Source: Powellomyces hirtus (lineage: Eukaryota > Chytridiomycota > Chytridiomycetes > Spizellomycetales > Powellomycetaceae). Taken from it: a stretch of 64,000 nt of DNA. Below, in pieces: positions 3,520 to 62,610 of this stretch (positions are counted from its first letter, which is position 1; each line of letters begins with the position of its first letter). The stretch covers positions 744,001 through 808,000 of the forward strand of contig JAHLKG010000003.1 in NCBI GenBank assembly GCA_025526995.1, given 5' to 3'. Under the pieces are notes generated by a model, which searched no databases, was not told the origin of the DNA, and worked only from the letters and a program-made list of their open reading frames with translations. The position numbers and the translations under genes were made by a program.

Positions 3520-4615
3520 AGGCTGTTCATAGGGTTTATTGTTCAACACAATAATGGCGTGAAACTGCTGGTAGACACATTAGTAGATCCGCATGTAGAG
3601 AGGCCCCTAGATTAGAACTTCTGGCGCTTTGTGCCTAAAATCAGACTGTTGCTCGAAAACACACAATGATCAGCTCCGACTTCACCACATCATTCTGCAC
3701 TACTGTATCTTCGATAATCATGTGGACGGCGACTGCGCATCGAATCGTGGGGAATGGCTGGATTGATGGGATTGACGATTGACGAGAGAGCCACGCGGTC
3801 CAGTCAGAGAGTCACGTGTTTCTTTTCTGCCGGCTGCGCCACCGGCCTTTCCCAACGGTATAAAAAAGCGTCGCATCTCGCCCTTCCCTCAACTCCCAAC
3901 TTTCTCTCTCGCACATCTTGCCTGCAAGAACAGGCAAGCAATCCTCCCTCTCTCATCCCTCCCTCTCGTTCGCCGTTGCACATAATAGGTTCACACAACC
4001 ATTTCTCTTGGCGCATTTGTTCTGTTGGTGGATTGTTGCTTGTGGTGTGTAGTGTCCCTTTTGGGTTCATCATGCTCTACGTAGTGGAACAATGCCCCTA
4101 AGACAATGGCTGGTGGGTCTATTACGTCCAAAGGTGCTTGGGCTTTGGGAGGTCGCTTGGCATCATGCAGTTGCAGTTGGAGAGAGTCATGTCAATTTCC
4201 CCAGCCCTATCGAAGCTCTGTGGAACCAGTTTACCGTGTTCCTCTGAGTCAAAATGTGGCTAAGATCCATTTTACGAAAGGAATCCTTTATGGTCGTTGG
4301 TTTACTCAAAACCGAAAACATGTCGTCTATCAACATTACCCAAGGAAACCACATTCCATATTTTCATGTCCATGCATGCAGACAAAAACAAAAAAAGCTC
4401 GGTTGGAAACTCCTCTGTGATATCCATCGGTCCCTGCGTCACTCTGCTGGTTTCAAACCTGTCAGAATGTGCGTGGGAACAGGACGTTTTGTCATGCCAT
4501 TGCCTGTCAGACGGGCATGCATTCGGGCTTTTTTTGGCCATAAAAATTGCGCTGAGCGACGTGTGCTCATGTTGGCAGGTCGATGGCGAATGATGCTGCG
4601 ATTGCGACGCTGCCT
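3520..4615. other. Intergenic region with a TATA box and a doubtful small ORF
   Basis: About 1.1 kb lies between the two-TM gene and the 3' end of the minus-strand SCAR/WAVE gene. TATAAAAAA at 3859-3867 is followed by a pyrimidine-rich stretch (3880-3970) typical of fungal start-site regions. The first ATG gives an 8-codon ORF and the next good-context ATG (4106) a 104-codon ORF ending at 4420. The latter has no recognisable motif. A transcript is plausible, but its coding status is unknown. Confidence 0.4.
3859..3867 (+). promoter_or_regulatory. TATA box upstream of an unassigned transcript
   Basis: The sequence TATAAAAAA is preceded by a GC-rich segment and followed by a CT-rich stretch. 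No convincing long ORF follows, so it marks a possible non-coding or short-peptide transcript on the plus strand. Confidence 0.4.
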
Positions 4616-58515: not shown

Positions 58516-58522
58516 CTACTTT
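58484..58522. repeat. 13 bp tandem repeat (three copies) across the RED/IK stop codon
   Basis: The unit cccaagctacttt occurs at 58484-58496, 58497-58509 and 58510-58522. The last copy contains the minus-strand stop codon of RED/IK (58518-58516), so the end of the CDS has been duplicated into the 3' UTR. Confidence 0.85.
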
Positions 58523-60315
58523 CCCCGCTTTTGCTGCTTCCCCTTCTTGGCCCCGCCTTTGCCGGTCGTACCCGACAGCTCAGATCCGTACTTGTCGCTA
58601 TATACCTTATTGAGCTGCTGGAACTCTTTGTTCAACTTCGCGTTATAATTCTTTTTGCCCCCATCACCACCTCGCTTGCCCCCGGATTTTTGTCGTCCAT
58701 CACTAGCCTTGACTCCAAACTGGAATGCAGCTTTGGGAAGATGCACCTGCTCTTCCTTGTACTTGAACCAGTCCTCTTCGTTTTCGAAATCGAAACGCTG
58801 CAGCTGACGACGCTTGTTCTGCTTGACACCCATGTCCATTTGTGTCAGGTCGACCTCACCGTCACTACCAGAATCATCCAAATCAGCCAAATCATCCGCA
58901 TGTGACGGGATGACGTGGGAATGGATGTTGTCTGACGTGGCAGCAGAATCAGCCAACTTGTCCACTCGTCGACGTTTTCGCGCTACATAACTGCTCGAGA
59001 GTTCAGCTGCTACCGACGTTGTCAGATCGCCTGGTCCAATTTCCAGCGTGGATTCGGTGTCTAGTTTTCCGACAATCTTCTGAACAGCTTCGGATCCTTC
59101 GAGTGCGCTGAGCATTCCCACGCTTTGAGCGACGAGTTTTGTGATGGAATCATCGCCCTGATCAGCTTTCACTATGCCCTCCATTGCATCCGTGACTGGT
59201 TCTTTATCGTTGTCGTCATCCTCCGCACTGTCATCATGTCGAAAGTATGGCGTTGTCGCTGGGGTGGGCCTATTAAGCCCAATCTTCTCCCGATCCTTTA
59301 CTTCCAAAATGTAATCACGCCCTGCATCCGCAAAGATATCCTCTTCGTCTTCCCCGTCGTCTACCAGATCTTGTGCAGCTGCGCGTTTTGCATCCGCTTC
59401 CTTCTTCTTTTCGGCTTCGGCAATGGCCTTCTCCTTGTCTTTCCGCTTGATGCGCCTCTTTTCGGTTCCTGTCGTACTACCTCCTCGGGCCCCCGTTCTT
59501 GTAGAAGACATGATTGAGATGACCTTTTCCATCACAAGGTCGTTGCTAGTGACTGTGAAGTGTTTCTCGTAGTCCTTTAAATCCGCCTTGCTTCTTATCA
59601 TCGTTGTTGGCACATCTGAGGTTGGCACATAATCGCCCATGTCATCCACTTCACCAAGCTCCCATGAAAACGCCATTCTCCCTGAGATGAACATTTCATT
59701 GCGAAGGGGCGGCTGAACCTTTGCTTTCCTGACCGCAACGTCGAATATGTTCGCTGCAAATGTGGAATTGAACGACGTCTGGCCATTTCCGTGGATCTGC
59801 TCAACGTAGTCTCGAGCTTGCTTCTCTTCCAGCTCGTCTTGTTGCTTCAAGTCAATCTGCATTTTCTCAAGAAGCGCATAGTCCAATCCTTTGACCATAT
59901 GAGTGTGCTTCGCATCTCCGCCGAGATACTTGCTTTGTTCGTAAGAGACGCCGGGCGTCGCAGGGGGTGCGACATCGTCGGTTGGAGCAACACCACTCTG
60001 AGACTCCTCGCTGGCTTTCAAGACGGCCAGCATTTGCTCCGTCTCCACATAGTCCGGATTGATGCCTTGCCGGCGCTCTTTCGCACGATCTCGATATGTC
60101 GTCCCGCTGCTTTCGGCGTCCTCTTCGCCTTTATTTGCAGGTTTCCATTGCTTCTTTTTCGGCTTCACTGGCTCGGGCTTGAGGAATCCGTCAGCGTCTC
60201 TTTTGCCCTTGTTGGCAACGGCACGAGGAGTTTGCGCTACACGTGGAGTTTGCTGTGATACTGCTCGTGGTGTAGCTAGCAGCTTCCGGAAATCGTCTTG
60301 ACCCAAACCTGACAT
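58516..60315 (-). CDS. IK: RED/IK spliceosomal factor
   Basis: Single-exon minus-strand ORF of 599 residues. The RED-like N-terminal domain is clear: DDFRKLLATPR, TTYRDRAKERRQGINPDYVE, then SKYLGGDAKHTHMVKGLDYA followed by LLEKMQ. These are the hallmark of RED/IK, the Smu1 partner in the spliceosomal B complex. Downstream are a Lys/Glu/Ala-rich stretch (RRIKRKDKEKAIAEAEKKKE), acidic patches (DDGEDEEDIFADAG) and a C-terminal RED-type block (RFDFENEEDWFKYKEEQVHL, then FQFGVKASDGR). The very end is basic, Gly/Lys-rich. The animal RE/RD dipeptide repeat is lacking. A nuclear splicing role is established for the family. Confidence 0.93.
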   Translation of the reverse strand: MSGLGQDDFRKLLATPRAVSQQTPRVAQTPRAVANKGKRDADGFLKPEPVKPKKKQWKPANKGEEDAESSGTTYRDRAKERRQGINPDYVETEQMLAVLKASEESQSGVAPTDDVAPPATPGVSYEQSKYLGGDAKHTHMVKGLDYALLEKMQIDLKQQDELEEKQARDYVEQIHGNGQTSFNSTFAANIFDVAVRKAKVQPPLRNEMFISGRMAFSWELGEVDDMGDYVPTSDVPTTMIRSKADLKDYEKHFTVTSNDLVMEKVISIMSSTRTGARGGSTTGTEKRRIKRKDKEKAIAEAEKKKEADAKRAAAQDLVDDGEDEEDIFADAGRDYILEVKDREKIGLNRPTPATTPYFRHDDSAEDDDNDKEPVTDAMEGIVKADQGDDSITKLVAQSVGMLSALEGSEAVQKIVGKLDTESTLEIGPGDLTTSVAAELSSSYVARKRRRVDKLADSAATSDNIHSHVIPSHADDLADLDDSGSDGEVDLTQMDMGVKQNKRRQLQRFDFENEEDWFKYKEEQVHLPKAAFQFGVKASDGRQKSGGKRGGDGGKKNYNAKLNKEFQQLNKVYSDKYGSELSGTTGKGGAKKGKQQKRGK

Positions 60316-60532
60316 TGTGTGCTCTCGGTATCAATTTCCAAGCCAGAGGGGCAAGTTGAGCGAAGTCGACATTCGCGCGTCGCAAACCCTGAACGAACAT
60401 TTGCAAGGTGATGAACGTTTGCAGCAGTTTTTTTCTTGCCACGTAAGAATATTTCAATATCTATATCTATCAGTGTGTACAGGAGAAGACAACAACTTCC
60501 AAAGACGGTAGTGCAGAGGAGCAGATAGCTCG
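60316..60532. other. Spacer between RED/IK start and the methyltransferase 3' end
   Basis: 217 bp with both genes on the minus strand. It must contain the RED/IK promoter and the methyltransferase 3' UTR. No motif was identified. Confidence 0.45.
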
Positions 60533-62610
60533 TCAACCCACGCATGGTAGTGCGCTTTCAAGCCCTCTTCGAAGCTCCAGTTCATCCGACAGGTCCACAT
60601 ATGGGTTATCTGAAAAAGCGGATGCCGCCGCCAAGGCAGCATGTACTGTTGGCTCGTTGTTCGATTGATGGTGACTTTGCATGGTAAAGTGCATATCACT
60701 TAGTAATGGCAAACCGTACGACATGGTCGAGTGGTGCACACCGAGATTCAAACTCAGGCTTGAGGTAGTGGCAACAGTGGACACGGCAGCAGGTATGGTG
60801 CTTGACTGACTACTGGTCCCGCTGCTGCTGCTACTGCTGCCGCCGAGCTGTTGAGTTAGTGCAAAATTCTGCAAAAAGCCGTGAAACTGCGCAGAGTTGA
60901 GCACCGCCGGGGGCGAATCATCCGAGGACATTTGCAGATCACCCGATGACGGAGGGCCGAACGCCATGATGGGAGTTGTAATTGGAGTGCATGGTGCACT
61001 GGCAGTCGGTTGCGGAAGGACATCAGCGAATAGGTCACGATGCATCGCATCTTTCTGTATCTGGAAAGACCATGAGTTCCATCCGGGAATGCTCCCCATT
61101 CGTGCAAATTCGGAGCAGAATGTTTCAACATTGGGACCCCTGAGAATGACATGTTTGTGGTTAGAATATGGAATTCGCCGATTGTATGGAAGGGCTGGCT
61201 AAGGAACCCACATGTAGACCAAAACGTGACTTTCGTCCTGCATGCACTTCTCCCTACCCGTTGGCGTAGAGAAAGAAAGCTTGCTGCTGAAGAAGCAATG
61301 CGGATAATTCTGCACCCTGCGGAACCATGATGTTCCGAAGTCCACTTTCAGCAAGACCATTACGGAGGAGATTTCACCCATGCGGAACTTTTCTTCGGCA
61401 GTGCAAAACCATCGGGATTGCTGACTGGTTCCGTCGGCTTCCTGACCGAGGGGAGGAGAGAGCCATACGTCGCCGTGCCATGGTTGATTAATACCATCGA
61501 CGCTCTCGTCGTAAAACTGTGTAGCGACTCGAGAATCGTGGATTTTATCATTGGCATACTCGCAAGACGCAGGGTCGAGGTCAAAGGTCGACTTGTCAAT
61601 GACTTGCTTGCCAGCAGAAATGATGCTTTTCGGAGTGTAGAGCTCATTATTGAGGTTGGAGAATGATATCCCAGTCTCTACACAGAGTTCAAATAAAGTG
61701 AGACTTTCGTTTGTACAAACCATGAGAATGTGCTGAACCCACCATGCTTTACAGTCATTGCCACAACGTGTTCTTCAGTAATTGTTTGTCCAGACTCACA
61801 TACTTGTTTCCATATAAAGCGTCGTACGTCAGCTGGAAACTTGTGTAGGGAACGGATATGAGATATATTCACTGGAACTGGCAGCGTTGCATCTTCCACC
61901 AAGGATTCATACACGCTCCTGTACATCACGATATCAGTCATGAAATTCTATCGTCGTCGATGAAGCGGAGAGGTACTCACGCAGAACACAGGTACGTGTT
62001 GGTGGTTCTTCGGCTGAAGGAGAACCGTTCCTTCGCATAGGTGTATATAGATTTCGCCGGGACTGCAATGGGAAGGAGGCTATTTGTGAATAAAAGTCTG
62101 TGAAGAAAGATCATAACAGGGGTGCTTACTATATAGCTTCTCTTCATCAATTTCACGCAGCGCGGCGGCTACAGTTTTGCGGGGTAAATAAGTTAGATTA
62201 TAATGCAGAGTACCAATAAACGTCACTCTTTACTCACCAACCAAGAAGAACTTGCCCGTTCCGAGATGTTCTCTGATGACCGCCTCCAAATCCCTCAGCT
62301 TTCTCACGGCAGCTTCCATCTCATCGTCGCTCGCAGCCCCTTGTCTCTTTCGCTTGTAAATGGCTGTGGGCCGGCGACCCCTTCGGGCGGCTGCAGTATT
62401 TCGTATAGGTCCATGGCTTTCATGCTCGTCGACCCCACCCGTCTCAGCCTGCTTGTAGGAATGGAACTTGTGATGAATCTCAGCAGCCGGTGCAGCGTCC
62501 AAACCACATCGTTGGCTGTCTTGTTGGTCTTGATGATGCTGAGGACTCGCAGTCGAGTACAAAAGCGGATCGCTGTCGTAGTCGAACAGAGGCGATACAG
62601 ATGAAATCAT
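60533..62610 (-). CDS. Phage/bacterial-type DNA N6-adenine methyltransferase (Dam-like) with N-terminal module
   Basis: Six exons on the minus strand: 62610-62238, 62168-62130, 62062-61981, 61918-61743, 61677-61212 and 61139-60533 (580 residues). Residues ~115-230 resemble a module attached to prokaryotic and phage adenine methylases: AAALREIDEEKLY, YTYAKERFSFSRRTTNTYL, then HIRSLHKFPADVRRFIWKQV and GQTITEEHVVAMTVKH. The catalytic part follows: NELYTPKSIISAGKQVID, STFDLDPASCEYANDKI, NQPWHGDVWLSPPLG, and VLVYMGPNVETFCSEFARMG. This is the PF05869-like Dam architecture. The usual NPPY-type motif is SPPL here, so activity is uncertain. The last ~180 residues are Ser/Thr/His-rich. Introns of 62-72 nt with consensus ends show a spliced nuclear gene, not contamination. 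Function is inferred, perhaps 6mA writing or a domesticated mobile-element enzyme. Confidence 0.8.

Follow-up and report, generated by a model that had tools for sequence, protein, structure and literature searches.

A spliced chytrid gene joining a phage-type ParB-like module to a Dam-type methylase domain with an altered catalytic motif

How does a gene resembling the Dam-type adenine methyltransferases of phages come to stand, interrupted by introns, in a chytrid genome, and does its product still methylate DNA? The question is raised by a minus-strand gene at 62610-60533 of the window, a 64,000-nucleotide stretch of Powellomyces hirtus (contig C3 in our numbering) in an assembly of 29.26 Mb and 60 contigs. 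A preliminary description of this DNA had proposed a six-exon fusion of a prokaryotic-looking helical module to a Dam-like domain, horizontally acquired and domesticated, perhaps as a second methylation system, or else an enzyme derived from a mobile element. We find that the gene belongs to a fungal family (family A) in which a ParB-like module precedes a Dam-like domain and the motif IV tetrad has departed from the NPPY of most phage relatives in all 30 members examined. With moderate confidence, we favor the explanation that a phage-type ParB-like plus Dam gene was acquired anciently and has probably been kept as a DNA-binding regulator whose methylase half is dead.

The predicted gene comprises six exons on the minus strand, separated by five introns of 62-72 bases that all read GT...AG, and encodes 580 residues plus a stop. 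Exon 1 (62238..62610; start codon at 62610; residues 1-124) carries a disordered basic tail and the beginning of the ParB-like module; exons 2 (62130..62168), 3 (61981..62062), and 4 (61743..61918) follow, exon 5 (61212..61677) holds the bulk of the Dam-like methyltransferase fold, and exon 6 (60533..61139) supplies the end of that fold (residue 380 on), a low-complexity C-terminal tail, and the stop ending at 60533. The spliced translation agrees letter for letter with a P. hirtus database protein (DFJ77DRAFT_225565; P0001) and contains the peptides cited in the preliminary description, whose exon chain is thereby confirmed; as a sequence-derived prediction, the splice model is based on this identity and on conservation. 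In a protein database search, the core is 45-86% identical to 22 other family A proteins. Several deposited chytrid models (P0005, P0008, P0011, P0021, and P0023) seem, from the alignment, to omit or mis-splice exons.

The similarity to Dam methylases appears real but remote. The PHROG 111 "DNA methyltransferase" profile matches the window protein with an E value of 1.2e-15, and tblastn against Vibrio phage methylases yielded E values down to 6e-16, bearing out the suggested phage-type origin. The Pfam Dam profile (PF05869), singled out beforehand as the check to be made, also recognizes the protein (E 8e-6), but with 26.1 bits, under the curated cut-off of 28.1; among 23 family A members, 8 match this profile at E <= 0.5 (best, 4.3e-6). 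The Pfam scan returned Dam plus one weak unrelated family only, with no match to MT-A70 (PF05063), whereas an NCBIfam search gave zero matches and a sequence search of the solved-structure database nothing useful. With the phage Dam methylases (PF05869, PHROG 111, TIGR01712), the protein shares a homologous methyltransferase fold and the YTP, DxDPAS, W-G-W-x-PP, and C-terminal YxGxN...F motifs; it differs from them in being a eukaryotic, spliced, and long-tailed gene product and in having [S/F/H/A]PPx, in 30/30 family members, where they have NPPY.

The module ahead of this domain (61673..62328, residues 95-225, with introns 1-4 within its span) by itself matches cyanobacterial plasmid proteins (P0024 and P0025; best E 1e-5), and its predicted structure resembles the DNA-binding domains of ParB/Spo0J. 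The predicted helix-turn-helix fold is common to it and to ParB, Spo0J, Noc, and KorB, but the window protein has no Pfam ParB sequence match and no Pfam match to the ParB/Srx N-terminal CTPase domain, the region before the module being of low confidence in the structure model.

The two modules are also found together outside fungi. A profile search recovered two prokaryote-like proteins, P0034 and P0045, with both modules (query coverage, 95% and 89%): the former is a metagenome protein, and the gene for the latter lies on a 39.5-kb IMG/VR contig (3300037466_002458) beside replication-initiation and helicase-loader genes. In a third fusion (L027; IMG/VR contig 3300031197_000017), terminase and portal genes come before and a head gene after. 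All three have homologous modules in the same order as the fungal protein, but they retain NPPY, measure 313-340 residues, and lack long tails. Because of these three proteins, the fusion is most simply regarded as older than the fungal gene, and the proposal of a prokaryotic ParB-like module ahead of Dam holds for phages too. In other phage relatives, the common Dam domain follows N-terminal parts of different kinds. As a separate observation, a metagenome protein (P0105) has a ParB-like module as in the window gene, joined there to a methyltransferase of the PF01555 type.

The named proteins of family A belong to numerous chytrid genera and, outside the chytrids, to the blastocladiomycete Paraphysoderma, so that two fungal phyla are represented. 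The carriers include P. hirtus (a spizellomycetalean chytrid), Fimicolochytrium jonesii, and Spizellomyces punctatus, as well as chytrids of other orders; taxonomy was looked up for four species, and the other carriers were counted as chytrids by name. The family counts cover 30 proteins, excluding a second, shorter model from B. salamandrivorans (P0021) and short chytrid-like metagenome pieces (P0035, P0037, P0040, P0043, and P0046). Protein searches, one of them judged on the best 120 of 128 matches, did not find the family in other fungi or eukaryotes. When 30 fungal rows were placed in a careful tree together with 46 phage/bacterial ones, the fungal members formed one clade with support of 100/99, the bootstrap being not fully settled, while two quick trees place the family beside different phage/bacterial sequences with weak support. 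The tree that the preliminary description had called for, with other chytrid matches included, thus groups all of them, and horizontal acquisition followed by domestication is borne out by this single clade, the spliced structure, and the presence in two phyla. The window gene is best read as old and vertically kept in chytrids.

These data also bear on whether the locus might stem from contamination, be a pseudogene, or belong to a present-day mobile element. Such a reading could draw on the Pfam score under the curated cut-off and on a splice model predicted from sequence, but it is highly improbable in view of the five spliceosomal introns, the many chytrid genera and two phyla, the RED-family gene that is the downstream neighbor (58516-60330), and the result of searching the core protein against the assembly: five matching pieces fall at the locus, and the sole other match, a short one, is a paralog (family B, below).

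Does the protein still methylate? In motif IV, the D/N/S and the aromatic residue serve catalysis. The window protein reads SPPL there (61448..61459, residues 297-300), and the tetrads of family A are SPPL (10), SPPV (3), SPPQ, SPPS, SPPG, and SPPH (2 each), and SPPY, SPPA, SPPI, SPPT, FPPF, FPPT, HPPN, HPPC, and APPE (1 each). The pattern [DN]PP[YFW] is found in 0/30 members of family A and 0/31 of family B. Among 60 phage/bacterial loci, of which 59 are readable (the 60th is cut off by a contig end, and L035 and L036 are one contig counted twice), we counted NPPY 51 times, NHPF 4 times, and NPPS, NPPG, FPPT, and TPPY once each; a first parse had given NPPY in 49/51 loci, or 41/43 after identical stretches were removed. 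Position 300, the aromatic position, shows the largest gain in variability over the phages among 152 columns and ranks fifth in variability within the fungi. The surrounding scaffold is retained: D258, P259, W290, P298, and P299 are invariant in the fungal and phage/bacterial sets alike, the first two, within the DLDPAS motif (61565..61582, residues 256-261), being present in 30/30 fungal and 46/46 phage/bacterial rows.

Constraint is likewise unevenly spread along the protein. Averaged over pairs of family A members, identity reaches 0.753 in the module against 0.573 in the methyltransferase half, with 0.36 and 0.23 in the tails (from 6 and 9 pairs only). A basic triplet, KRK or similar, precedes the module in 15/19 members examined; the corresponding KRKR stretch of the window protein (62344..62355) is a putative nuclear localization signal. 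A conserved scaffold and DNA-binding module combined with a variable aromatic position fits a DNA-binding protein with lost catalysis, and the methylase active site of family A looks lost.

Several observations weigh against this conclusion. One family A tetrad (SPPY, 1/30) is still compatible with [D/N/S]PP[Y/F/W]. Nine phage/bacterial loci had been skipped by the pattern of the first parse, and they proved to hold 2 NPPY, 4 NHPF, 1 FPPT, and 1 TPPY, with 1 cut by the contig end; the 46-row phage/bacterial control contains none of the NHPF, FPPT, or TPPY loci, which makes its 46/46 figure for N too clean. Since tetrads are altered in phage relatives as well, the decay may predate the transfer. 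R356, present in 46/46 phage rows, is K in 18 and R in 8 of 29 fungal sequences, mostly a mild change. Finally, species reported to have high N6-methyladenine (6mA) are among the carriers of family A (excerpts of PMC12695648 and PMC11258239). The altered phage/bacterial loci (L040, L044, L045, L046, L061, L062, L063, and L065, near 4001-4550, with NHPF, NPPS, NPPG, FPPT, or TPPY) may themselves be inactive or changed methylases.

The 6mA background needs to be set beside these points. According to excerpts of the papers concerned, 6mA in early fungi is credited to MT-A70 enzymes (PMC12695648, PMC11258239, PMC13297926); chytrids generally have lower levels, with P. hirtus, F. jonesii, and Triparticalcar arcticum as high-6mA (>1%) exceptions (PMC11258239), and S. 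punctatus was picked for high 6mA among the species studied for AMT1 (PMC12695648). MT-A70 (AMT1/Mta1) and MetB are fungal adenine-methylase families, and MetB is described as bacterial-type and horizontally acquired, as we propose for the window gene; they differ from it in domain (PF05063 and PF02384) and in being tied to 6mA by these papers, whereas no evidence so far connects the window gene with 6mA. The present genome yields seven exon-level matches to MT-A70 and, in an exon-by-exon search, none to the MetB-type PF02384. With the tetrad altered in all 30 fungal members and MT-A70 genes present, the earlier suggestion of a working second adenine-methylation system is not supported; we rejected it as the leading explanation on the tetrad changes and kept it as a rival.

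The main rival holds that family A is still active with a changed chemistry or target (for instance N4-cytosine, adenine by a different route, RNA, or protein) and may work as a heterodimer with an inactive family B partner, as in MT-A70 pairs. We consider it unlikely. It gains from the retention of SPP in 25/30 members and of DxDPA, PP, and the fold, from the co-occurrence of A and B in several chytrid species, from the high 6mA of some carriers, and from known active/inactive subunit pairs in fungi (Mta1/Mta9; excerpts of PMC13297926); against it, the first tetrad position is F, H, or A in 5/30 members, the aromatic position holds 14 residue types, and the papers that report high 6mA credit it to MT-A70, for which this genome has matches. 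A paper on Phytophthora regards DPPY/DPPF as functional and points out a paralog with EPPH (PMC6211444).

The paralog was reached from the short match elsewhere in the genome, at C13:514724-516196 (L079, L080; DFJ77DRAFT_76301), a single open frame with no introns over the 491 residues searched. Family B keeps a strongly conserved ParB-like module, but its Dam half is without PP or DxDPA, and the tetrad, replaced by NLxx or DLxx, is absent in 31/31 proteins examined. These 31 are from 44 matches of the family B search, in which the named proteins are chytrids by name; that one search, with scoring confined to the 7990 candidates that had the most words in common, did not find the family in other fungi or eukaryotes. 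Profiles of A and B align over 270 columns with a probability of 99.7, and in a tree of the N-terminal module each family forms one group, their mutual relation being unresolved. Both occur under one species name in P. hirtus, S. punctatus (SPPG_01607 for A, SPPG_05986 for B), Thoreauomyces humboldtii, F. jonesii, and Borealophlyctis nickersoniae. Genetic transformation of S. punctatus has reportedly been published, which would make the hypothesis testable in a carrier of both.

For family A, then, the architecture, the distribution, the tetrad change, the pattern of conservation, and the fused phage relatives are documented along with the gene model; loss of catalysis, DNA binding, a nuclear regulatory role, and pairing with B are what we infer. 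Under the explanation of an acquired gene kept as a regulator, a fusion of a phage-type ParB-like helix-turn-helix module and a Dam-type adenine methyltransferase would have passed by ancient horizontal transfer to early chytrid fungi and then acquired introns and disordered tails. The ParB-like module would recognize DNA sites; the pseudo-methyltransferase, without its catalytic tetrad, may serve as a scaffold or a cofactor/DNA-binding domain that stabilizes DNA binding or oligomerization, perhaps with family B; and the low-complexity tails could recruit other nuclear proteins. If true, this would be a new chytrid-wide class of eukaryotic DNA-binding proteins derived from a phage methylase by loss of catalysis, and it would be a caution not to take such genes for 6mA writers when early fungi are studied. 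A precedent exists in the SBF/APSES factors, in which a viral DNA-binding domain (KilA-N) became a fungal regulator (excerpts of PMC4862756), although the domain family is another and the regulatory function is established there and inferred here. We put forward only tentatively, as a possible extension, that A and B, each a phage/virus-derived ParB-like module with a dead Dam, jointly act as sequence-specific regulators, a second case after SBF/APSES, with a C5-fused relative still held by virus-like elements.

That relative is a third family (C), found in the same genome. On contig C30 (L082, L086), an open frame encodes three domains in one protein: the ParB-like module, a Dam-like one with SPPE, and a methyltransferase of the C5-cytosine type (PF00145, E 3e-36; PCQ and ENV motifs by eye). 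Around it, at ~115-135 kb, lie Prim-Pol, an rve integrase with a chromodomain, and a Pox_A32-type ATPase, besides a weak capsid match below the cut-off; the gene group is consistent with an integrated element resembling Polintons or virophages. Further copies at C13:797799-799934 (L088) and C50:20464-22599 (L089) are near-identical to each other and ~65% identical to that on C30, with the tetrad NAPG, and diverged pieces on C10 and C8 have NPPS. Family C hints at a viral route for such modules into fungal genomes, and raises the alternative that the window gene came from the virus-like elements integrated in chytrid genomes, or was exchanged with them, instead of stemming from a phage directly, an origin compatible with the function proposed above. 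Its copies and their gene surroundings favor this, as do an alignment to the profile of 30 family A and 7 prokaryotic/phage proteins (280 columns; hhalign probability, 97.1) and the signature IPGxN (IPGWNSW in the window protein; 61070..61090, residues 396-402), present in 19/30 members of A (the remainder truncated or variant), 31/31 of B, and 2/2 of C and in 0/57 phage/bacterial proteins, a set that omits 8 of the 9 loci skipped at first parse. We nevertheless hold it to be rather doubtful: a quick tree sets family C off from A on a long branch, and the two weakly supported quick trees disagree over the neighbor of A. Viruses may have given the gene to the fungi or acquired it from them. Neither the family C protein nor the primase encoded beside it had relatives in scans of viral contigs.

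A retroelement source was considered and rejected for the window gene. The DIRS retrotransposon Dam is also a PF05869-type domain in eukaryotes (excerpts of PMC3783388), but it is part of a retroelement polyprotein, whereas the window gene is spliced, Pfam finds no reverse transcriptase or recombinase in its product, and its downstream neighbor is RED, the remaining window being unscanned for retroelement domains. On the mobile-element derivation raised in the preliminary description the evidence is divided: RED adjoins the gene itself, but its distant relatives stand amid virus-like genes in other parts of this genome. A match that does look like a retroelement-type Dam is found at C1:1836417-1836728 (L001), an open frame adjoining a gag-like one whose zinc knuckle is of the CCHC type; the C30 match was also tried as a retroelement, and rejected once the frame was read as the three-domain fusion of family C.

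Family A appears undescribed in the excerpts searched (PMC12695648, PMC3783388, PMC6211444, PMC11291939, PMC5005798, PMC13297926, PMC11258239, PMC4862756), those from two horizontal-transfer surveys (PMC11291939, PMC5005798) containing no mention of it in their passages; a 2016 review of adenine methylation (PMC4738411) may mention it. A last observation concerns a Calothrix plasmid protein (L084:1742-3562), annotated as a C-5 cytosine methylase, in which a KilA-N-like part (by eye) is followed by a Dam domain with NPPY and no C5 domain is visible; the annotation looks wrong.
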